DNA of 60,283 bases from Planctomycetota bacterium. GTDB lineage: Bacteria > Planctomycetota > MHYJ01 > JACQXL01 > JACQZI01. A program made the translations under genes and the position numbers. A model generated the notes under the pieces. It made no database searches. It was not told the DNA's origin and saw only the letters and a list, made by a program, of their open reading frames with translations. The first letter of the stretch is position 1, and every line of letters starts with the position of its first letter. The DNA lies in the NCBI GenBank assembly GCA_016207825.1, contig JACQZI010000022.1, positions 1 to 60,283 of the forward strand, written 5' to 3'. Shown here piece by piece: positions 26,601 through 60,283 of the stretch.

Positions 26601-27947
26601 ATGGAACTCTTTGATGAGAAAACTGATAATACTACCTCTAATGAGCAACTGCAACAGCCCCTTGCAGACCGGATGCGCCCCACTAATTTCAGCGAGTTCG
26701 TGGGACAAACCGAGATAATCGGGGAAGATAAACCGCTGCGTAAAACCATTACAAGCGGAAAACTGCCCTCGATAATACTTTGGGGCCCGCCCGGCTCTGG
26801 CAAAACTACATTGGCCTATTTAATCTCACGCGTGACCAGCTTTGAATTCGTCTCTTTCAGCGCGGTTACATCAGGCATCAAGGAAATACGCCAGGTCATG
26901 GAACGCGCCGAATATAATAAGAAAGCACTTAACCGCGGCACTATACTTTTTGTCGATGAAATACACCGCTTCAATAAATCACAGCAGGACGCCTTCCTCC
27001 CCTTTGTGGAAAAAGGCGTGATTACTTTAATCGGCGCGACTACGGAAAACCCGTCATTTGAACTCAATTCCGCGCTTCTTTCCCGATGCCGGGTGTTTAT
27101 CCTGAAAGGACTTACCAATGATGAAATAAAAACCATCGCCCAAAACGCCCTTTCCGATAAAGAGCGCGGGCTCGGAAATTATAAGGTAACAATCGGCGAA
27201 GGCGTCATAGAGCACCTGGTTAATATCGCCAACGGAGACGCTCGCGTGGCGCTGACCCTTCTTGAACTGGCCGTGGAATCAGCCGCGCCTGATAAGGAAA
27301 ACAAGCGGACTATCACCAAGGAACTAATCGAAAACGCCGCCCAGAAAAAAGTATTATTATATGACCAATCCGGCGAAGAGCATTACAATATTATTTCGGC
27401 CTTGCATAAAAGCCTGCGTGGGAGCGATCCGGACGCATCGTTATACTGGCTGGCCAGGATGCTCGAAGCCGGCGAAGACCCGTTATATATCGCCAGGCGG
27501 CTGGTGCGCTTCGCTTCCGAAGATATCGGTAATGCCGACCCGCAGGCGCTGGTAATCGCCATCGCCGCGAAAGAGGCGGTTGATTTTGTCGGCATGCCGG
27601 AAGCCAACCTGGCGCTTGCCCAGGCGGTTATCTACCTCGCCACCGCCCCGAAAAGCAATTCAGTTTACAAGGCATACAATAAAGTCAAGGCAGATGTTGA
27701 CGCAACCTATGCCGAACCTGTGCCTTTACACATGAGGAATCCGGTGACCGACCTCATGAAAAATATTGACTACGGCAAGGGCTACAAATACCCGCATGAC
27801 TTCCCGAACCACTTCGTCAAGGAAGATTATCTTCCGAAAAGCCTCGTTGGCAAGAAATATTACGAGCCGGGCGAATTCGGATTTGAGAAAGAAATACGGA
27901 AACGAATCGAATATTGGGAAAAGTTGAGAAAATCATCTCCCAAATGA
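26601..27947 (+). CDS. rarA: Replication-associated recombination protein A
   Basis: 448 aa, the usual length. RarA/MgsA is an AAA+ ATPase related to clamp loaders that acts at stalled replication forks in the cytoplasm. Walker A 'GPPGSGKT' (62-69), Walker B 'ILFVDEIHRF' (115-124), sensor 1 'LIGATTENPSFELNSALLSR', and the C-terminal 'YWLARMLEAGEDPLYIARRLVR' tetramerisation domain are all present. Start at ATG 26601; no ribosome site because the transcript looks leaderless. The stop overlaps the glycerate kinase start (ATGA), so the two are translationally coupled. Confidence 0.95.
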   Translation: MELFDEKTDNTTSNEQLQQPLADRMRPTNFSEFVGQTEIIGEDKPLRKTITSGKLPSIILWGPPGSGKTTLAYLISRVTSFEFVSFSAVTSGIKEIRQVMERAEYNKKALNRGTILFVDEIHRFNKSQQDAFLPFVEKGVITLIGATTENPSFELNSALLSRCRVFILKGLTNDEIKTIAQNALSDKERGLGNYKVTIGEGVIEHLVNIANGDARVALTLLELAVESAAPDKENKRTITKELIENAAQKKVLLYDQSGEEHYNIISALHKSLRGSDPDASLYWLARMLEAGEDPLYIARRLVRFASEDIGNADPQALVIAIAAKEAVDFVGMPEANLALAQAVIYLATAPKSNSVYKAYNKVKADVDATYAEPVPLHMRNPVTDLMKNIDYGKGYKYPHDFPNHFVKEDYLPKSLVGKKYYEPGEFGFEKEIRKRIEYWEKLRKSSPK

Positions 27948-46646: not shown

Positions 46647-47866
46647 ATTATCGGTTCTCTCTTATAATAGTTTTTCTCGTGGAAGCGCTTTCGCGGATTA
46701 AAGCGCTCGCTTGCCGCATCAGGCGGATGGGAAATCGGCAGTGATTTCCTGATGATTCTTTCTATCTCGTGGACATCCGGAATCTGGTTAGGCAGCGCAA
46801 AGGAAATGGCGTGCCCTTTGTGACCGGCGCGCGCCGTCCGGCCGATGCGGTGGACGTAATTGCCTTTGTCATCCGGCAGGTCGAAATTCACCACGAGCTC
46901 TATTCCCATGACGTCAATTCCCCGCGCGGCGATATCCGTCGCCACGAGGACCTTGTATTTGCCTGACTTAAATCCTTCCAAGGCTTCCCGGCGCTGCGCC
47001 AGCGAGCGGTCGGAATGCATGGCCGCGGCGGTGAATCCCATATTATTTATTTCCCGCGCAATCCGGTTGCAATGGTGCTTCATGCGGGAGAACAAGAGAA
47101 CCGAGCCGGGATACTTGCCGAGTATTTTACTCAGGAGCCGGAGCTTAAATTCCCGCTTGACGATATAGACTTCCTGGGTGACGCTTTCCACGGTCGTGCC
47201 CGGCGGCGCGATTTCCACGGAGATAGGCAGTTTCATATAGCGAGAGGCAACCCGCATAATCTCTTTATCCATAGTGGCGGAAAAGAGCATGGTCTGCTTT
47301 TTCTTGGGCACCTGCGCGGCGATTCTTTCCACCTGCGGGGCGAAGCCCATATCAAGCATCCGGTCTGCCTCGTCCAGCACGAACATTATAACATTCCCCA
47401 GGTTGACGTTCCGCCGTTCCATATGGTCGAAGAGCCTTCCAGGAGTGGCGACGATGACGCGCGGGTTACGGCGCAAGGCCTGCACCTGCGGAAACATCGA
47501 AGCGCCCCCGATAAGGCAGGCGGTCTTTATTCCGAATGGCTGGGCGAGCTGGCAAAAGACCTCGTCTATCTGGAGCGCCAGTTCGCGGGTCGGCGCCAGA
47601 ACCAGCCCCATCCCCGGTTTCTGGGCGAGCGACTGCACCATGGGAATGGCGAAGGCATGGGTTTTTCCTGTGCCGGTCTGCGCGATGCCGACGACATCCG
47701 AGCCGCTTATCGCCAGCGGAATCACCTTCGCCTGTATCGGCGTCGGCGCGGTAAACTTTATGCGCTGCAAAACCTCAAGTATCATGGGCGCGATGCCCAG
47801 CCCGAAAAAGCCTCCCGGTGAAACTGCCGGACAGGTGTTCGCCGTATTAGGCGTCTTGTTCATCAT
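46643..47866 (-). CDS. DEAD-box RNA helicase, RhlE-like
   Basis: 407 aa. Q-motif region 'FTAPTPIQAKVIP', motif I 'AQTGTGKT' (62-69), Ia 'PTREL' (92-96), II 'DEAD' (165-168), III 'SAT' (196-198), VI 'HRIGRTAR' (about 335). Short basic tail ('RFNPRKRFHEKNYYKREP'). Unwinds short RNA duplexes, probably in ribosome assembly or RNA decay. Overlaps der by 20 bp and ychF by 4 bp, so all three are coupled. Confidence 0.93.
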   Translation of the reverse strand: MMNKTPNTANTCPAVSPGGFFGLGIAPMILEVLQRIKFTAPTPIQAKVIPLAISGSDVVGIAQTGTGKTHAFAIPMVQSLAQKPGMGLVLAPTRELALQIDEVFCQLAQPFGIKTACLIGGASMFPQVQALRRNPRVIVATPGRLFDHMERRNVNLGNVIMFVLDEADRMLDMGFAPQVERIAAQVPKKKQTMLFSATMDKEIMRVASRYMKLPISVEIAPPGTTVESVTQEVYIVKREFKLRLLSKILGKYPGSVLLFSRMKHHCNRIAREINNMGFTAAAMHSDRSLAQRREALEGFKSGKYKVLVATDIAARGIDVMGIELVVNFDLPDDKGNYVHRIGRTARAGHKGHAISFALPNQIPDVHEIERIIRKSLPISHPPDAASERFNPRKRFHEKNYYKREPII

Positions 47867-49310
47867 TGTGTTTTCTTCTTCCTTGTCCCCTAAAAGCTTT
47901 AGGAGAACTGCAATCCCGATACCTTTGTTCGGAATGCCCGGAAGGCCGGGCGCCTTTCTTATCCCGTTCCCTTTGCCTTAAGACAAGCTGGACTGGAATA
48001 TTTTCTAATTTTAAATCTTTCCTTAAGTGATTGGTAACGAATTTTAGATATTCGTTGTCAAACAGCCTGCGGCTATTGACAAATATGGTAATGGTTAACG
48101 GGAGGTTCCCCGTTTGCGTGGCATAATACATCCTGGGAAACTTGCCGGCCTTTGCCTTTGGGTGATACGCGTTCTTTATCTTATCCAGGTATCTATTAAG
48201 AAGCGAGGTGGAAATCTTGCGCTTGGACTGCCGGATTAATTCCTGCGCGGTCTTTATGGTCTCCTTGACGTTAAACCCACTCTTGGCGGAAATAAACGAG
48301 ATGGGCGCGAACTTCAGGCTGGGTAAGTTACGTGAAAGATAATCAATATAATCATCGGGCGTGGTGCCTTCAGGGACAAGGTCCCATTTGTTGATGATGA
48401 TAATGCAGGGCTTACGGCCTTCAACGAGCGTCTCGGCAATCTTTTTATCCACATCGGAAACCCTTTCCCGGGCGTCAATCAGGAAAAGGATGACATCGGC
48501 GCGCTCCATGGCAAATTCCGTGCGCATCCGGCTGAAGACCTCCACGGAATCTTTGGGTTTGGCTTTGCGGCGCAGTCCGGCCGTATCTATGGCGATAAAG
48601 ACTTCGCCGTCAATCTCAAAGCGGACGTCCACGGAATCGCGCGTGGTGCCGGGAATCTCACTTACAATCATCCGCTCCATTTGGGCGAGGTTATTGACCA
48701 GAGTCGATTTGCCTACATTGCGTTTCCCGACGATGGCAACTTTTAAGGGCTCATTTTCTTTTGCTCCATCATCCGGGACAAAGCCCTTGGATTTGATTAT
48801 CTCGATTATCCTTTCGCGCATGGTATCCAAGCCCCGTTTCTGCAGGGCGGAAAAGAGGATGGGTTCGCCAAGACCGAGGCCGTAAAACTCACCGGCATCG
48901 TTTTCCAAGGAGGCCGTATCTGCCTTGTTGATTGCCAGTATCAGGTGGTCATGGTAAGGGCGCACCAGCTTGGCTATTTCCTTGTCCAGCGGCGTTATCC
49001 CGTCGCGGATATCCATGAGAAAGAGAAGCACATCCGCCTGCTTGATTGCATGGAGTATCTGAAGGCGCATTTCCTTATCAAAGACACCGAATTTACGGCT
49101 TTTGCCCTCCAGCATTTTTGTATCGAGAATGCCTCCGGTATCGGTCAGCTCCAGGCGATAGCCTTCGTGGACGAAGGAACTCGTGACCGAATCCAGGGTC
49201 GTGCCGGGAATACCGTCCACAATCGACACCCTCTTTTTCACCAGTGAATTCAATAGCGTAGATTTGCCGACATTCGGCCGGCCGATGATGACAATTCTCG
49301 GGCTCTTCAT
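47847..49310 (-). CDS. der: Ribosome-biogenesis GTPase Der (EngA)
   Basis: 487 aa. Two tandem GTPase domains: first G1 'GRPNVGKS' (10-17), 'DTGG' (57-60), 'NKAD' (128-131); second G1 'GKRNVGKS' (195-202) and 'DTAGLRRK'; then a KH-like domain. Der is bacterial-only and acts in 50S assembly. After residue about 450 there is a basic tail ('REDKKGARPSG...QGRRKHND' type) longer than average, whose DNA overlaps the next gene. Lies 21 bp downstream of the HD-GYP gene. Confidence 0.95.
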   Translation of the reverse strand: MKSPRIVIIGRPNVGKSTLLNSLVKKRVSIVDGIPGTTLDSVTSSFVHEGYRLELTDTGGILDTKMLEGKSRKFGVFDKEMRLQILHAIKQADVLLFLMDIRDGITPLDKEIAKLVRPYHDHLILAINKADTASLENDAGEFYGLGLGEPILFSALQKRGLDTMRERIIEIIKSKGFVPDDGAKENEPLKVAIVGKRNVGKSTLVNNLAQMERMIVSEIPGTTRDSVDVRFEIDGEVFIAIDTAGLRRKAKPKDSVEVFSRMRTEFAMERADVILFLIDARERVSDVDKKIAETLVEGRKPCIIIINKWDLVPEGTTPDDYIDYLSRNLPSLKFAPISFISAKSGFNVKETIKTAQELIRQSKRKISTSLLNRYLDKIKNAYHPKAKAGKFPRMYYATQTGNLPLTITIFVNSRRLFDNEYLKFVTNHLRKDLKLENIPVQLVLRQRERDKKGARPSGHSEQRYRDCSSPKAFRGQGRRKHNDEQDA

Positions 49311-52910: not shown

Positions 52911-55900
52911 CTAAAAATCCCTGCCGCCTTCGCTGTTATACTTCCAATTGACCTTTATGGAATCGGTGCCGTTAACAGTTTCTATATAAAGCACGGCGTA
53001 TTTGCCTTTAATTGTTTTTAAGGCGTACGAATGCCCTTCGACGGCCGGCATATATGTAGCAGACTGGTAACCGGCTTCAGGCACCGTTGCCACTTCATCA
53101 AGCTCCTTGGAACCAAGGTCAATTAAGCCACCGTTAATGGAGCTGATGATGCCGCTGGTATTCCAGTAAAAATCCGGGTCATCCAGCACGCTTATCATGC
53201 CGCCGGAATGGAAACTGTACCCCTCATTGCTGGTAAATTCATTCTGCATGGTTATCCGTCCGGTTGTGACATTGGCATTGCCGCCCAAAGGCGAAGCCGT
53301 ATCAGAAGGTATCACAAAAATCACATCGCCTTTCAGGGCAAGCAGCTTATTATCATCCGCGGAAAAAACCAGCGTCGTCTTCCCGCTCTGCTTGGTCTGG
53401 GCAGCGGAGCCGGTCGCGACAAATGTCCTGTCCCAGTGCGCCGACACCATCCTTTTGGCTCCCTGGGTATCGTAGGAATCTATCACGATATTCAGGCGCA
53501 CCGTATTGGCGGCGTCAAAGAAACGCCTTAGCTGGTCGCGCAACGTATCATCGCCGAAGTAGAAATCGGAGGAAACATTATCCATAAAACCCTTTAAATC
53601 CTTTTTCTCAAAGGCGTCTTTCAGCCTGGCAATGACTTTCTCTATCTTTTCGCGGCCGGTGGTTTCGTCATAAAACACGGTAATCCGCGGAAAATCGATT
53701 GAATCAGAAACGGCGCCATCAGGATTAACCGCCCGGACGGATATTTTCATCTCGCCTGTTTTAGGCTTGAATTTATACGCCCAGGATTTTCCTTCATAAG
53801 AAACTTCTTTCCAGCCATCGCCGGTATCTATTTCTATTTTGGTCTTGCCGACGACAAATCCGCTGCCGGCCTGCCCGGAAATTTCTATCTGGCCGTCTTT
53901 CAATTCATCTTTATGCACAACTATTTTATTTTCAATATCGTCCCAGCGCCGGCCTTGTATCATGACATTCCTTAATCCGGGTGTTTCCGGCTTTTCCTCC
54001 GGAACGTTCGTTGTTTCCCCGTCAGGCGGATTAACCGCTTCCGGCACGTCCGCGGTGGTTTTTCCGCCGGCTTTGAGGCGGCTCATCAGGTCTTTCCACT
54101 TAACCAGGTATTCTCCCCACCCGGCGACATCGGTCTTTAATTCCTTGCCGCGCTTTAAAACCACGTCCATCTTTTTCTGGAGCGGCGCAACGTATAAATC
54201 GCAGCGCTCGATGAAATTCCCCGCATCCGTGGTATAGCCCAAGCCATAACCAAGCTCGGTTGTCTCCTTTTCCAGTTTATCCAGTTCCGCCTGTATCTTA
54301 ACCGCTTCCGCGCGGTAGGTATCCACATAGCTTTTTGCCGTGGGAAGCGACTCTATGAAAGAAAGCTGTCCTTTTATACGGGAGATTTTATCTTCCACTT
54401 TCTTGGTGATATTTTCATCCCAGGAAGCGTTGTAAGACCCGGTTTTTTCCCAGGCGGCCATATTGCCAATATCATAAACGCCTGGCGAATCGAAATTAAC
54501 CACCTTGCCCTTATAAATCACGCCGCCCTCCCAGCTGACTTTGCCGTCTTCGTAAAAAGCCACGGACATATCAAAATCCCTGCGCATCTTATCCATGACA
54601 TCTTCCCCGGCTTTGGCAAGCTCGCTTATCAGCTGGCGCTTGGGAATAGCCTTTACGGCGCGGTCATGGCAATCGTAAAGCGCTTCCAGGTTACCTTTCG
54701 GCTGGCGGAGCAATTCATCCAATCCGGCAAGGCTTTCCCGCACGCTTAAAGTGAGCAGGTTATAACGGAGATTCGCCACGGCAAGTTCCCCCTTAATTTC
54801 GCCTTCGGGCGAATCGGCGGGCTTACCCATCAAATCCGGAGTAATCAGGTTATTTAAATCCATGACGGTAACCGGCTTTTGGGCGCGGTAATAAACGGAG
54901 ACGATTCCCGGAATCTGGCCAACGGTTTCTTCAAGCTTGGCGCTCAAAGCGAGCCCTTCTTTAACCTCGCCGAAGTTATTAAGGTCGGTTTCATGCTTTT
55001 TAAACTTAAAAATATCCTTTTCCACAAGTTCACGGTCCTTCTTAAAAACACCGTCCCACTTGGACTTGGTTTCCTCAGGATTGGCAAGCATATCCATCCT
55101 GAGATTATCCCAATTTATATCATATGTAAGATTGCCCTGCGAGACCTTATTATCCACGGACTGACCTATTTCTTTCTTAAGCTCGCCGATTTTACGGTAA
55201 GCGCTTGAAGACTTGGAACGCAAGGATTCCAATAAATCCTTAAAACCGCTGTTATTAAGCGACGATAAAATCGAATCTTCGGCGCTCTTCAGCGCGGAAG
55301 AAAGTTTGGCTTCATCCTCATTGGTGTTTTCCGAATCGGTTATTCCAATCTGTTTGACATTCTGTTCATACGTGCCGTAAAGTATGACGCCGGCGATTAA
55401 CTGCGCCTTCTGGCTTTCCAGATAGGCAAGAACTTCTTCGAGCGTTCCCTTTTGTTTGCCCTCTGCCCCGCCTGAAGGCTTCTTAAGTCCCTTAACCGGT
55501 CCGGCTGCCATCATTTTTTTCAGTTCCGCATCAGTTAAAATATCTTCAAGCGCCGATTCCGAGACTTTGCCTTCGGTGATAAGCTCGGCGATTTTGCCGG
55601 CGGATTCTGAGGACATCCCGGGAAACATCTTGGGAAGCGCTTCCTTAAATATCTTTTTACGGACTGTTTTCTTCCCTTCCTCTAAATCAGCGTTGATAGC
55701 ATTATCCACCGCCTGCTCCGTTTCCATTCTTTTATTAAAATACTCCAGCGCCCAATCCGGGAATTTCTTTGCGCCGTATTCAACCATTCCCCATTTCCAC
55801 CATCTGTCCAAATACATATCGCGGGTGACATCCTCGCCAGCCCAGCGGTTGGTGGAGCGGTAAGATTCATAAGTCGCCTCAACCGCTTTATTCTTTTCGT

Positions 55901-56348
55901 TGGTCACCATGGAGTCGCCCAGATATTTGCCCAGTTTCCCGGCGGCATAAGCCATATTAACCGCCTTGGCAAGCGTGAATACCTTGGCGGCCTGCTCAAG
56001 CCCGTATTCGCCGAGCGTCTTCAAGCCATCCAGCGCGGCATCTTCGTATTTGCCCTGCTTGATTTTCCCCAAAAGCTCCGCGCATTTTATGGTCAACCCA
56101 AAGGTAGTGGGAATGGGCGAATTGACGCCGAAAGTGGTGCATAAATCGTTAAAGGCGCCCTGGTCATTCTGCAGGTTTGAGAGGCGTTTTTCTGTTTTGC
56201 TTAAAAAATCAGACTTCTCGCGCGCGCTTATACCGTCATCTTCCGCCCAGGCAGGAAGGCACGCCAAAGCCAGCGCCATGGCCGACAATAATACGAACCT
56301 AAAAACTCTTGGTAACCGATAGGCTGAATACTGTTTCTGTGTAATCAT
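52911..56348 (-). CDS. Large exported helical protein with Ig-like and NTF2-like domains
   Basis: 1,145 aa. Signal peptide about 1-35 ('LLSAMALALACLPAWA'). Residues 40 to about 740 are helical and charged with no recognised family, though 'YGLEQAAKVFTLAKAVNMAY' and similar suggest a scaffold. Residues about 790-890 look Ig-like, 900-1010 look SnoaL/NTF2-like ('IEKVIARLKDAFEKKDLKGF'), and the rest is a beta-rich end. Its first 50 bp overlap the preceding outer-membrane protein gene, so translation is coupled and both may act at the cell surface. Confidence 0.78.
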   Translation of the reverse strand: MITQKQYSAYRLPRVFRFVLLSAMALALACLPAWAEDDGISAREKSDFLSKTEKRLSNLQNDQGAFNDLCTTFGVNSPIPTTFGLTIKCAELLGKIKQGKYEDAALDGLKTLGEYGLEQAAKVFTLAKAVNMAYAAGKLGKYLGDSMVTNEKNKAVEATYESYRSTNRWAGEDVTRDMYLDRWWKWGMVEYGAKKFPDWALEYFNKRMETEQAVDNAINADLEEGKKTVRKKIFKEALPKMFPGMSSESAGKIAELITEGKVSESALEDILTDAELKKMMAAGPVKGLKKPSGGAEGKQKGTLEEVLAYLESQKAQLIAGVILYGTYEQNVKQIGITDSENTNEDEAKLSSALKSAEDSILSSLNNSGFKDLLESLRSKSSSAYRKIGELKKEIGQSVDNKVSQGNLTYDINWDNLRMDMLANPEETKSKWDGVFKKDRELVEKDIFKFKKHETDLNNFGEVKEGLALSAKLEETVGQIPGIVSVYYRAQKPVTVMDLNNLITPDLMGKPADSPEGEIKGELAVANLRYNLLTLSVRESLAGLDELLRQPKGNLEALYDCHDRAVKAIPKRQLISELAKAGEDVMDKMRRDFDMSVAFYEDGKVSWEGGVIYKGKVVNFDSPGVYDIGNMAAWEKTGSYNASWDENITKKVEDKISRIKGQLSFIESLPTAKSYVDTYRAEAVKIQAELDKLEKETTELGYGLGYTTDAGNFIERCDLYVAPLQKKMDVVLKRGKELKTDVAGWGEYLVKWKDLMSRLKAGGKTTADVPEAVNPPDGETTNVPEEKPETPGLRNVMIQGRRWDDIENKIVVHKDELKDGQIEISGQAGSGFVVGKTKIEIDTGDGWKEVSYEGKSWAYKFKPKTGEMKISVRAVNPDGAVSDSIDFPRITVFYDETTGREKIEKVIARLKDAFEKKDLKGFMDNVSSDFYFGDDTLRDQLRRFFDAANTVRLNIVIDSYDTQGAKRMVSAHWDRTFVATGSAAQTKQSGKTTLVFSADDNKLLALKGDVIFVIPSDTASPLGGNANVTTGRITMQNEFTSNEGYSFHSGGMISVLDDPDFYWNTSGIISSINGGLIDLGSKELDEVATVPEAGYQSATYMPAVEGHSYALKTIKGKYAVLYIETVNGTDSIKVNWKYNSEGGRDF

Positions 56349-57918
56349 TGCTTGAACCTCCGGAATAATCTAAGTTTTTTCTGCTCATCTCCGCCTCCAC
56401 TCTGGGAGCGGTTTGTTTATCGGATACTTTCCAGTTAAATCTCAAAGCGGTCATATCCTGCCGCGAATCAATCGCGCCGGACACGCCGGTATTAAACCCG
56501 TTTATCTGGTGGATTAACCAGGCCGACCACGAACGGTTCCGGTTCAATTCAACCCCAATATTAACCCCTGAAGTAACGTCCTTTTTATCAGTACTCGTAT
56601 TTTCATCCATGATAATGCTGTAGCTTAAAGAAAGATTCACCGGAACGGCTTGGTTTGCGAGTTCATAACCGCCGCCCAAATTGATTACATTAATAATATG
56701 GGATAAATCAGCCGGGGTTTTATCCTCCTGGTTCCTGTATTCGTAAGAAACATTGTAATCCAGCTTTTCGTATTTGCCGTCCAGCCTTAAGGGAACGCTG
56801 ATGTTCACTTCGTCAATAGTTTCATCGGATTTAACGCGCAGTTCTTCCCGCGCCTCCGCGCTCAGTTTCATATCCTTATTGATTTGCCATTCGATAGACG
56901 CTTGCGGAGAATTGACGCGTGTGGTGCCGTTCAATTGCGATTCCAGATTATTGCGGCGGAAACCGTATGAGAAATTCCCGGAAACGCTTTCGGAAAACGC
57001 ATGGTTTAAAGAAGCTTTCAGGCGCAGGCTGTCCGAAGATGCCGAGCCGGCCAGCGTATCAAAATCAGGATTGACATGGTAATATTGAAATCTTAATGAT
57101 GTGTTAGCCCATCTTAAATTGCTTTTCAGGTTGAACGCGGTATCCGATTCCGTCGAAGTGCGCTGGCGCAAATCGTCGTAATTGCGGTAGCTTTTGGCGA
57201 ATTCTCCGGCAAGGATCCAGTTGCGGATTGGCTTGCCGTTAAAATCGAGGCCGAATACCCTGTTCTGCCTTCCGGCCAACCCGTCAATCTTATCAGAGGC
57301 ATCATCATCAACGGTGACAAATCCGAATCCGGCCATCAGGTTCGGCTTAAAGCGGTAAGTGACCCGTCCCGCAGTGGCGTATTGCTTGTATTCATCCGCC
57401 GTGCCGCCCCAGACATCCTGCCAACGCTGTGCGGTATTGCCGGCAAGGATATCCGTTGTCAAGCCTTCGCCCGCGGCAAATTCCCGCTTGTATTCAATCC
57501 CGCGCACGCTTTGGGAAAGTATAAACTCCGGGAAATCCGGGATAATATCGCCCGCAATCAATTCCTGCTCGCGCCATTTCAGCTTGGCAACCAACTGGGA
57601 AAGTCCCCATTTTTCCGATTCGATGGAAGTATCGTTGCTGGTGCGTCCGCGGAAAAGCAGGGAAAAATCCTTATTGCCGAGCTTTTCGGCGCCGTTAATC
57701 CTGATTTCATCTATGATGGTAAAATCCTCTTTAAGGAACGATTGTTCCTCGTTGCCGCTGACCGAATTGCTTTTCAAGGTGAGTTTATTCTCGCCGTTCC
57801 AGTCTGATTGGGCGGGCGAACTGAACGATAAAACCAGGAACATTATTAATATTCCCGCTGTTGTTCTTCCGGATTTCCGGGTGATTTTTATATCCACTCT
57901 TGTTGCGTTTCTTTTCAA
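56299..57918 (-). CDS. Predicted outer-membrane beta-barrel protein, 539 aa
   Basis: Signal-like N-terminus with a long basic lead ('KITRKSGRTTAGILIMFLVL', cleavage near residue 38). The rest is repeated amphipathic strands ('LRWANTSLRFQYYHVNPDF', 'KYEKLDYNVSYEYRNQED') and the C-terminus ends in Phe ('FSLSVTKSF'), as expected for a large barrel. Resembles PEP-CTERM-associated outer-membrane proteins in style. Overlaps the 1145-aa gene by 50 bp. Confidence 0.8.
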   Translation of the reverse strand: MKRNATRVDIKITRKSGRTTAGILIMFLVLSFSSPAQSDWNGENKLTLKSNSVSGNEEQSFLKEDFTIIDEIRINGAEKLGNKDFSLLFRGRTSNDTSIESEKWGLSQLVAKLKWREQELIAGDIIPDFPEFILSQSVRGIEYKREFAAGEGLTTDILAGNTAQRWQDVWGGTADEYKQYATAGRVTYRFKPNLMAGFGFVTVDDDASDKIDGLAGRQNRVFGLDFNGKPIRNWILAGEFAKSYRNYDDLRQRTSTESDTAFNLKSNLRWANTSLRFQYYHVNPDFDTLAGSASSDSLRLKASLNHAFSESVSGNFSYGFRRNNLESQLNGTTRVNSPQASIEWQINKDMKLSAEAREELRVKSDETIDEVNISVPLRLDGKYEKLDYNVSYEYRNQEDKTPADLSHIINVINLGGGYELANQAVPVNLSLSYSIIMDENTSTDKKDVTSGVNIGVELNRNRSWSAWLIHQINGFNTGVSGAIDSRQDMTALRFNWKVSDKQTAPRVEAEMSRKNLDYSGGSSNDYTETVFSLSVTKSF

Positions 57919-58029: not shown

Positions 58030-60030
58030 ATGGCAAAGATTGATTATAACGACATCGGATTTTACCAGTCGCTCGGATTCAAAAGCGGGGTGGAAATCCA
58101 CCAGCAGATTCTTACCAAGAAAAAGACTTTCTGCCATTGCCCGGCGGGCAAGTATTCCAAGACGCACGACGCGGAAGTCCTGCGCCATATGCGACCGACC
58201 CTTTCGGAACTGGGCGAATACGACGGCTGCGCCCTGATGGAATTCAAGACCAAAAAGAACGTCGTCTACTGCCTCAACCGGGAATCGGTCTGCACCTATG
58301 AAATGGACGATACTCCCCCATTCCTGGTCAATAGGGAAGGGCTTGATATCGTCATCGAGCTCGCGCTCATGCTAAATTGCAGTATCGTTGACGAACTGCA
58401 TATAGCGAGGAAGCAATACCTCGATGGCAGCATCCCGACCGGCTTCCAGCGGACGGCCGTGGTCGGCATCAACGGATGGATTCCTTACAAAGACCGCCGG
58501 ATAAATATCAGCCACGTCTGTTATGAAGAAGACGCCTGCCGTCAGATAAGCAATATCGGGCACACCATCAAGTTCCGGACGGACCGGCTGGGCATGCCCT
58601 TGATAGAAATCATCACGCAGGCGGAAATGAGGACACCGGAAGAGATGCGCGAGGTCGTCCGGGAAATCAGCCGCCTGATAAGGACGAGCGGAAAACTGCG
58701 CCGCGGCATCGGTTCGGTCAGGCAGGATGTCAACGGCAGTATCGCCGGCGGCAGCCGGGTGGAAATAAAGGGCGTCCCGCAGATAAACTGGATTCCGCGC
58801 CTCCTGCATACCGAGGCAATCAGGCAAAAGGAATTATTGGATATAAAAAAGATACTGTCGGAAAAAGGCGTATCCGAGAAATCACTTAAAACCGTTAAAG
58901 CTGATTTAACGGAAGCGCTCTCCAAGACGAAATCGAATATTATGAGAGAGAACCTGGAAAAAGGCAATGCCATCGGCGGAATAAAGCTCCCCAAACTGGG
59001 CGGTATATTCAATCATCCGACACAGACAGGCGGTCATACTAGCTGCAAATTAATCGGCCGTCCCCGAACCCCGCTACTGCGGGGGGAGTGGGGCAAAACC
59101 TTCGCGGATGAAGTTGCCGGGCGTTTACGCGTAATCGCCTGCCTGGATAACATGCCGAATTTCTTCCATACGGATAAATACCCCAAATACCCGGGTTCGG
59201 ATAAAGACCTGGCTATCATAAAAAAGAAATTGGGATTGAAGAAAGGCGACCTCGGCGCGCTCGTCTGGGGAAGCAAGCAGGATGTGGAAACCGCGCTGAA
59301 CGAGGTAAGGCTGCGCGTCGTGGACGCGATTAACGGGGTGCCGAACGAAACCCGCCAGCCATTTAAGAACGGCATCACGGATTTTGAAAGGATACTGCCC
59401 GGCCCGAACCGGATGTATCCGGATACGGATTCGCCCCCGGTAAAAATAACGCCGGAAATGGTCCAAAAAATACGGGCAAATATCAAGGAACCGCCATCAC
59501 AAAAAGAAAGGCGCTATACGGCGCTGGGGCTCCCCTACCAGATTGCGCGCGATTTATCGGTCTCTCCGCGGGCGAATTTAATGGATAAACTTATTAAAGA
59601 CAAGAATGTAAGTAAAGTCCTTGCCGGAGCGACGCTTACCCAGACATTGAAGCATCTCGAGCATAAAGGAATATCCGTTGAGAAGATAAAAGACGAATCC
59701 ATTATTGAAATATTCTCTCTTTACTCCAAAGGCAAATTCTATAAGGAAGCGATTCCGGTGATACTGGAAAAGCTCAGGGCTAATCCTTCGGCAAAAGTCA
59801 AAGACATCATATCCAAGAATAAACTTATCGCACTGCCTGAGTCAAAGACAAAGGCGGTTGTGGCGACGGCTATAAAGAAAAGCCGGTTTAAGGCATATAG
59901 TAAAACGAGCGATAACCTGCTTGCAAAGAAGACCTTATTCTACGCGGGAAAGATAATGAAAACATACCGCGGCAGGATAAAGGGCGACTCTCTCATTCCG
60001 GCGATAATGGAAAAACTGCCGGCTAAATAA
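58030..60030 (+). CDS. gatE: Archaeal-type Glu-tRNA(Gln) amidotransferase subunit E
   Basis: 666 aa. GatE, with GatD, converts Glu-tRNA(Gln) to Gln-tRNA(Gln) and is normally archaeal. N-terminus 'GVEIHQQ' (20-26), zinc-type Cys35/Cys37, 'HMRPTLSELGEYDGCALMEF', 'DGSIPTGFQRTAVVGINGWI' and 'RRGIGSVRQDVNGSI' follow GatE rather than GatB, as does the length (GatB is about 480). The GAD-like insert (about 335-440) and C-terminal YqeY-like tail are present. Codons near 344-355 hold a REP-like palindrome. GatD is not in the window. Start ATG 58030; an earlier in-frame start at 57988 falls inside the promoter. Confidence 0.9.
   Translation: MAKIDYNDIGFYQSLGFKSGVEIHQQILTKKKTFCHCPAGKYSKTHDAEVLRHMRPTLSELGEYDGCALMEFKTKKNVVYCLNRESVCTYEMDDTPPFLVNREGLDIVIELALMLNCSIVDELHIARKQYLDGSIPTGFQRTAVVGINGWIPYKDRRINISHVCYEEDACRQISNIGHTIKFRTDRLGMPLIEIITQAEMRTPEEMREVVREISRLIRTSGKLRRGIGSVRQDVNGSIAGGSRVEIKGVPQINWIPRLLHTEAIRQKELLDIKKILSEKGVSEKSLKTVKADLTEALSKTKSNIMRENLEKGNAIGGIKLPKLGGIFNHPTQTGGHTSCKLIGRPRTPLLRGEWGKTFADEVAGRLRVIACLDNMPNFFHTDKYPKYPGSDKDLAIIKKKLGLKKGDLGALVWGSKQDVETALNEVRLRVVDAINGVPNETRQPFKNGITDFERILPGPNRMYPDTDSPPVKITPEMVQKIRANIKEPPSQKERRYTALGLPYQIARDLSVSPRANLMDKLIKDKNVSKVLAGATLTQTLKHLEHKGISVEKIKDESIIEIFSLYSKGKFYKEAIPVILEKLRANPSAKVKDIISKNKLIALPESKTKAVVATAIKKSRFKAYSKTSDNLLAKKTLFYAGKIMKTYRGRIKGDSLIPAIMEKLPAK
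59060..59094. repeat. REP-like palindrome inside gatE
   Basis: GTCCCCGAACCCCGC, loop TACT, GCGGGGGGAGTGGGGC. Near-identical to the intergenic copy at 42571-42604. It encodes part of a Gly/Arg/Pro-rich stretch ('GRPRTPLLRGEWG') that has no counterpart in archaeal GatE as I remember it. Confidence 0.85.
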
Positions 60031-60052
60031 ACACACATAAATACACCCTAAT

Positions 60053-60096
60053 TTTGTCAATCCAAAAGGGGAACTTTGTCAACTTAAAAAGGGAAC
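60053..60096. repeat. Two 22-bp tandem units after gatE
   Basis: 60053-60074 and 60075-60096 read TTTGTCAA, a 6-base variable part, then A(A/G)GGGAAC. The TTYGTCAA core resembles array 3 read on the minus strand. Only two units are clear. Confidence 0.7.
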
Positions 60097-60227
60097 TATG
60101 GCTATAAAAATGCATATATTCGCACCCATTCTTAATATATTTAGAATTAGTAAGCAGATTAAACGGATGGGCTGAATTCGCCCCTAAAGGGAGGCTTCGC
60201 ACTGTACAAAATACCCAAAAAACATGG

Positions 60228-60273
60228 TTTTTGGTGCAGTTAAGTGCACACAAAAGTGAGTTTTTGGTGCAGT
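60228..60273. repeat. TTTTTGGTGCAGT direct repeat at window end
   Basis: Exact copies at 60228-60240 and 60261-60273, 33 bp apart, with GTGCAC between. Nature unknown. No gene is visible in 60031-60283. Confidence 0.6.
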
Positions 60274-60283
60274 GAAAAATCTG

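Follow-up and report, generated by a model that had tools for sequence, protein, structure and literature searches.

The window (the whole stretch of DNA analysed, 60,283 nucleotides of a planctomycete genome) carries gatE, which together with a gatD located elsewhere in the genome probably encodes a functional bacterial-type GatDE, a Glu-tRNA(Gln) amidotransferase that works in parallel to GatCAB in this organism. The predicted pathway would start with the single GluRS, which makes Glu-tRNA(Gln). GatD would hydrolyze glutamine (or asparagine) to yield ammonia, and GatE, as the tRNA-binding and amidating subunit, would activate the glutamate side chain on Glu-tRNA(Gln) and amidate it to Gln-tRNA(Gln). 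In this cell without GlnRS, GatDE and GatCAB would share one pool of tRNA-Gln. The presence of both subunits, their active-site residues, purifying selection, the absence of GlnRS, the bacterial tRNA-Gln, the clade membership, and the patchy spread are established at the sequence level; the enzymatic activity and the tRNA substrate of the window GatE with GatD, as well as the parallel use of the two amidotransferases, are predictions.

A 2022 review confines GatDE to archaea and uses this restriction in arguments on LUCA and on why GlnRS never entered archaea (PMC9499178). The earlier note on this DNA had likewise called GatDE the archaeal route; this is what the review states, but a sister clade of canonical archaeal GatE occurs across about 15 phyla of bacteria and in some Thermoplasmatota. 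Its presence in many bacterial phyla, with a bacterial-type tRNA-Gln and beside GlnRS or GatCAB, undercuts the archaea-only premise. No report of GatDE in bacteria was found in the literature searched, in which the bacterial pair is a separate branch without precedent. NCBIfam would name these genes correctly, and the novelty therefore lies in the pattern and not in the gene name. Bacterial GatDE makes it testable how GatDE recognizes its tRNA and why cells keep two Gln-tRNA routes.

The gatE gene and its product

The gene is a single open frame on the plus strand that opens with an ATG at 58030 and has its stop at 60030. The relatives L004 and L118 start at the same position, in support of this choice of start. 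The features of the region are as follows.

56299..57918, minus strand: putative outer-membrane beta-barrel protein, divergent from gatE and outside the system (weak Pfam BBP2_2 and SlpA_C matches)
58030..60030, plus strand: gatE, predicted Glu-tRNA(Gln) amidotransferase subunit E of the bacterial-type clade, 666 aa (GatE models, Pfam, solved chains)
58093..58101, plus strand: codons E22-I23-H24, part of the presumed GatB/GatE kinase-transamidase active site (E22 and H24 invariant)
59032..59094, plus strand: in-frame insertion specific to the lineage, residues 335-355 (nearly all other GatE rows have a gap here)
59912..60274, plus strand: last ~40 codons of gatE and 3′ non-coding DNA, repeated on contig C8 with 83% identity (sequence comparison)

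The full-length GatE that had been noticed in a bacterial genome is real. Its 666 residues score 543.9 bits against PRK04028 (cut-off 456) and 444.2 bits against TIGR00134 (cut-off 319.55), two NCBIfam GatE models that are matched over their whole length. Of the solved GatE chains, 1zq1 aligns with it near full length at E 6e-106 and 2d6f at E 1e-94. The product carries the Pfam domains GatB_N and GatB_Yqey, and GatB and GatE have the amidating and tail domains in common. GatB models match as well, but all under their cut-offs, and the gene lies outside a gatCAB operon; the true gatB of the genome is located on contig C30. In GatDE the ammonia comes from the asparaginase-type GatD, whereas GatCAB obtains it from the amidase GatA.

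At the thresholds used, E22, H24, E166, E167, and E193 are invariant in an alignment of 97 rows, of which 73 are bacterial-type GatE and 24 canonical archaeal GatE. E22-I23-H24 and the acidic positions E166/E167 and E193 are taken to form the active site, with a catalytic role presumed from GatB.

The insertion at residues 335-355 contains a GC-rich palindrome (59058-59088) and has no second copy within the window. The gatE of the sister genome harbors a different GC-rich palindromic in-frame insert of 57 bp that is located further along the gene (L004, about 1590-1665); an apparent in-frame stop in this sister gene proved to be its regular stop codon. Both inserts resemble palindromic elements known to invade coding regions.

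GatDE beside GatCAB and GlnRS

The search of the rest of the genome that the earlier note had proposed returned gatD, which carries a frameshift, and a complete gatCAB operon (contig C30), while no glnS was found in this genome (2.9 Mb, 97.6% complete). Only one bacterial GluRS is encoded, along with AsnRS, a bacterial AspRS, and asparagine synthetase. With AsnRS and asparagine synthetase at hand, the cell does not need GatCAB for asparagine, and its retention for this purpose is unlikely. Both amidotransferases therefore point to tRNA-Gln, and GatDE and GatCAB appear to serve the same tRNA-Gln in parallel. The sole GluRS (L092:6661-7968, 435 aa) is devoid of about 45 residues of a putative zinc-binding region of the catalytic domain, and the GluRS of G003 is similarly short.

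Bacterial GlnRS, with or without a YqeY-like domain, yields the same product, Gln-tRNA(Gln), but charges the tRNA directly with no intermediate. Its co-occurrence with GatE was evaluated in 66 genomes, 63 of which are GatE-positive (G392 and G074 probably represent a single organism). GlnRS scores over the cut-off in 46 of the 63 GatE-positive genomes and GatA is present in 27. The classical role of GatDE would therefore be redundant in most hosts. In the planctomycete G048, glnS, gatE, and gatD lie in a row, and the same cluster is found in G073 and G092 (one family), which ties the pair to the Gln-tRNA pathway. Several GatE-positive hosts additionally carry two GluRS-like genes.

This pattern would fit a back-up or correction enzyme, a reading whose chance comes close to even without reaching it. 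GlnRS or GatCAB would be the main supply, and GatDE would repair Glu-tRNA(Gln) formed by a loose GluRS. In the present genome GatDE would back up GatCAB; the chemistry would be that of the parallel pathway, so that the two readings overlap and the flux alone differs. Five draft genomes speak against a mere back-up. G141 (88% complete) and G256 (90%) show no glnS, gatA, or gatB beside GatE, and neither GlnRS nor GatA was found in the named genomes G420, G422, and G423. With no other recognized route in these drafts, GatDE would be their sole recognized source of Gln-tRNA.

A more speculative proposal, possible but rather doubtful, is that bacterial-type GatDE constitutes a functionally distinct tRNA amidotransferase that has a quality-control or parallel role beside GlnRS and has spread horizontally over about fifteen bacterial phyla and Thermoplasmatota. 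If true, glutamine tRNA would be charged by two simultaneous routes in these cells.

The GatD partner and its frameshift

The gatD gene scores over the cut-off on the minus strand of contig C16 of the same genome, 0.9 kb from the start of the contig, and among relatives it does so solely where gatE occurs. In G003 and G004, which represent two further genera of the order, gatE and gatD lie next to each other in convergent orientation, and contig C22, the window, is therefore probably linked by its right end to the left end of C16. The GatD of the sister genome G001 matches the solved GatD chains and keeps the catalytic threonine, threonine-aspartate, and lysine positions.

The frameshift is located in the linker between the N-terminal and the asparaginase-like domains (L091:1960-2030, contig C16), whereas gatD is intact in G001 and in the order. 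The linker differs strongly from that of the sister, and the change therefore exceeds a single base. If real, the frameshift may leave GatD broken or produced as two chains, which speaks against the parallel pathway in this organism. In comparison to the sister genome, dN/dS is 0.11 for gatE and 0.04 and 0.02 for the two pieces of gatD. Such strong purifying selection indicates that the genes are in use.

The frameshift is confined to this assembly, and the patchy presence of the pair within the order and the class points to frequent loss. Both would fit a pair that is decaying in this genome, with gatE still intact, gatD reduced to a pseudogene, and the work left entirely to GatCAB. This alternative is unlikely. 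The piece downstream of the frameshift is 98% identical to that of the sister with a dN/dS of 0.02, so that any loss must be very recent, and a consensus error in the draft genome is an equally likely cause.

Phylogeny, spread, and contig context

In the GatE tree (97 rows) the canonical archaeal sequences, which stem from the three archaeal groups Methanothermobacter, Pyrococcus, and Thermoplasmatota, are split from the bacterial-type sequences with full support. When rooted with GatB, the two groups are reciprocally monophyletic sisters (support 100/97 and 96/97). With these three archaeal groups sampled, the window GatE falls outside the canonical archaeal clade and into its strongly supported sister; an origin of the bacterial-type clade in an unsampled archaeal phylum is still allowed by this sampling.

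Two origins had been suggested in the earlier note, together with a GatE phylogeny to judge them. Inter-domain transfer in the simple sense, with a gene copied recently from an archaeon, is unsupported because the window gatE groups with mostly bacterial sequences, whose clade is the sister of canonical archaeal GatE. The other origin, descent as an old trait of the lineage, is retained in part. It holds within the order, where gatE is present in G001, G003, and G004 and the sequences form one clade (support 99). Descent does not extend across the phylum, in which GatE is patchy and polyphyletic: it scores over the cut-off in 20 of 392 Planctomycetota genomes, and the planctomycete sequences are scattered among other phyla, with at least six label changes forced by well-supported branches. 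This scattering and the mixing of the clade between phyla argue for horizontal movement among bacteria.

A scan of named genomes for GatE relatives, of which the best 80 of 146 were kept, returned mostly bacterial MAGs and some Thermoplasmatota. The phyla among these best 80 of 146 include Acidobacteriota/Aminicenantes, Myxococcota, Gammaproteobacteria, Ignavibacteriota, Bacteroidota, Krumholzibacteriota, Zixibacteria, Fermentibacterota, Neomarinimicrobiota, Cloacimonadota, Riflebacteria, WOR-3, Mcinerneyibacteriota, and Electryoneota. Among the control genomes, 4 of 14 pass the GatE cut-off, which equals the number of archaea among them. At most bacterial loci gatE is directly followed by gatD, and GatD is 61-76% identical over the best segment.

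Archaeal GatDE, as known from Methanothermobacter thermautotrophicus (2d6f) and Pyrococcus abyssi (1zq1), resembles the bacterial-type pair in that both subunits are full-length homologs with the same domains and catalytic residues. The bacterial-type GatE, however, shares about 30-35% identity with its archaeal counterpart, and the archaeal gene order is gatD-gatE. The bacterial hosts also possess GatCAB or GlnRS. A further difference is found in the tRNA. Archaeal GatDE recognizes A1-U72 of tRNA-Gln (PMC9499178), and the sampled Thermoplasmatota have A1-U72. The tRNA-Gln of this genome and the tRNA-Gln(UUG) of 18 GatE-positive planctomycetes have U1-A72 instead, as do the UUG and CUG isoacceptors in GatE-positive bacteria of other phyla. 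The tRNA recognition of the two enzymes must therefore differ. A1-U72 was sought on tRNA-Gln in the GatE-positive bacteria read and was not found, and co-evolution of tRNA-Gln with GatDE was rejected on this basis. A second tRNA-Gln dedicated to GatDE was rejected as well, since the UUG and CUG isoacceptors of the hosts both carry U1-A72.

The bacterial-type sequences show fixed differences from canonical GatE near the active site (M54 versus L, D94 versus E, I135 versus N, D465 versus E), although the active-site residues themselves are common to both groups. These differences are compatible with another substrate, such as a special tRNA isoacceptor or Asp-tRNA, in which case GatDE would have been recruited away from the Gln pathway. 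The depth of the split between the sister clades and the archaeal chromosome G402, which encodes a canonical GatE, a bacterial-type GatE, and GlnRS, would agree with such a recruitment. It is nevertheless improbable, as no conserved neighbor besides gatD hints at another pathway at the gatE-gatD loci, the third gene that recurs (in one planctomycete family only) is glnS, and some hosts are without any other recognized Gln route. The Thermoplasmatota genomes G402, G455, and G464 each carry a canonical GatE gene together with a bacterial-type one. GlnRS scores over the cut-off in the Thermoplasmatota G402 (the genome of L017, a complete chromosome; C1:3040455-3042029), G394, G400, and G435, and an archaeal-type (A1-U72) tRNA-Gln gene lies beside glnS in G402 and G400. 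The 2022 review states that no archaeon has GlnRS (PMC9499178).

The window comprises the entire contig C22 of the assembly, and gatE is therefore located 253 bp from a contig end. The contig probably breaks off after gatE because of the repeat at 59912-60274; the copy on C8 (L089:8223-8606) adjoins an HtrA-like protease gene. The nearest named relative of the window GatE (87% identity) comes from an independent MAG within the genus, assigned to Candidatus Brocadiia (Planctomycetota). A chimeric contig with gatE from a contaminating archaeon, which the position at the contig end and the description of GatDE as archaeal only might suggest, is highly improbable, since gatE recurs in this independent MAG and in two more genera of the order, the window GatE lies outside the canonical archaeal clade, its codon usage agrees with the rest of the contig, and contamination of the assembly is 0.05%.

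The neighboring genes named in the earlier note are confirmed, with weak matches for the outer-membrane type, der at 47847-49310, and a RarA-type AAA protein at 26601-27947. A 1145-aa protein encoded at 52911-56348 has no NCBIfam or Pfam match. The left end of the contig (2-16643) is occupied by three very long successive open frames of 2201, 2085, and 1195 aa.
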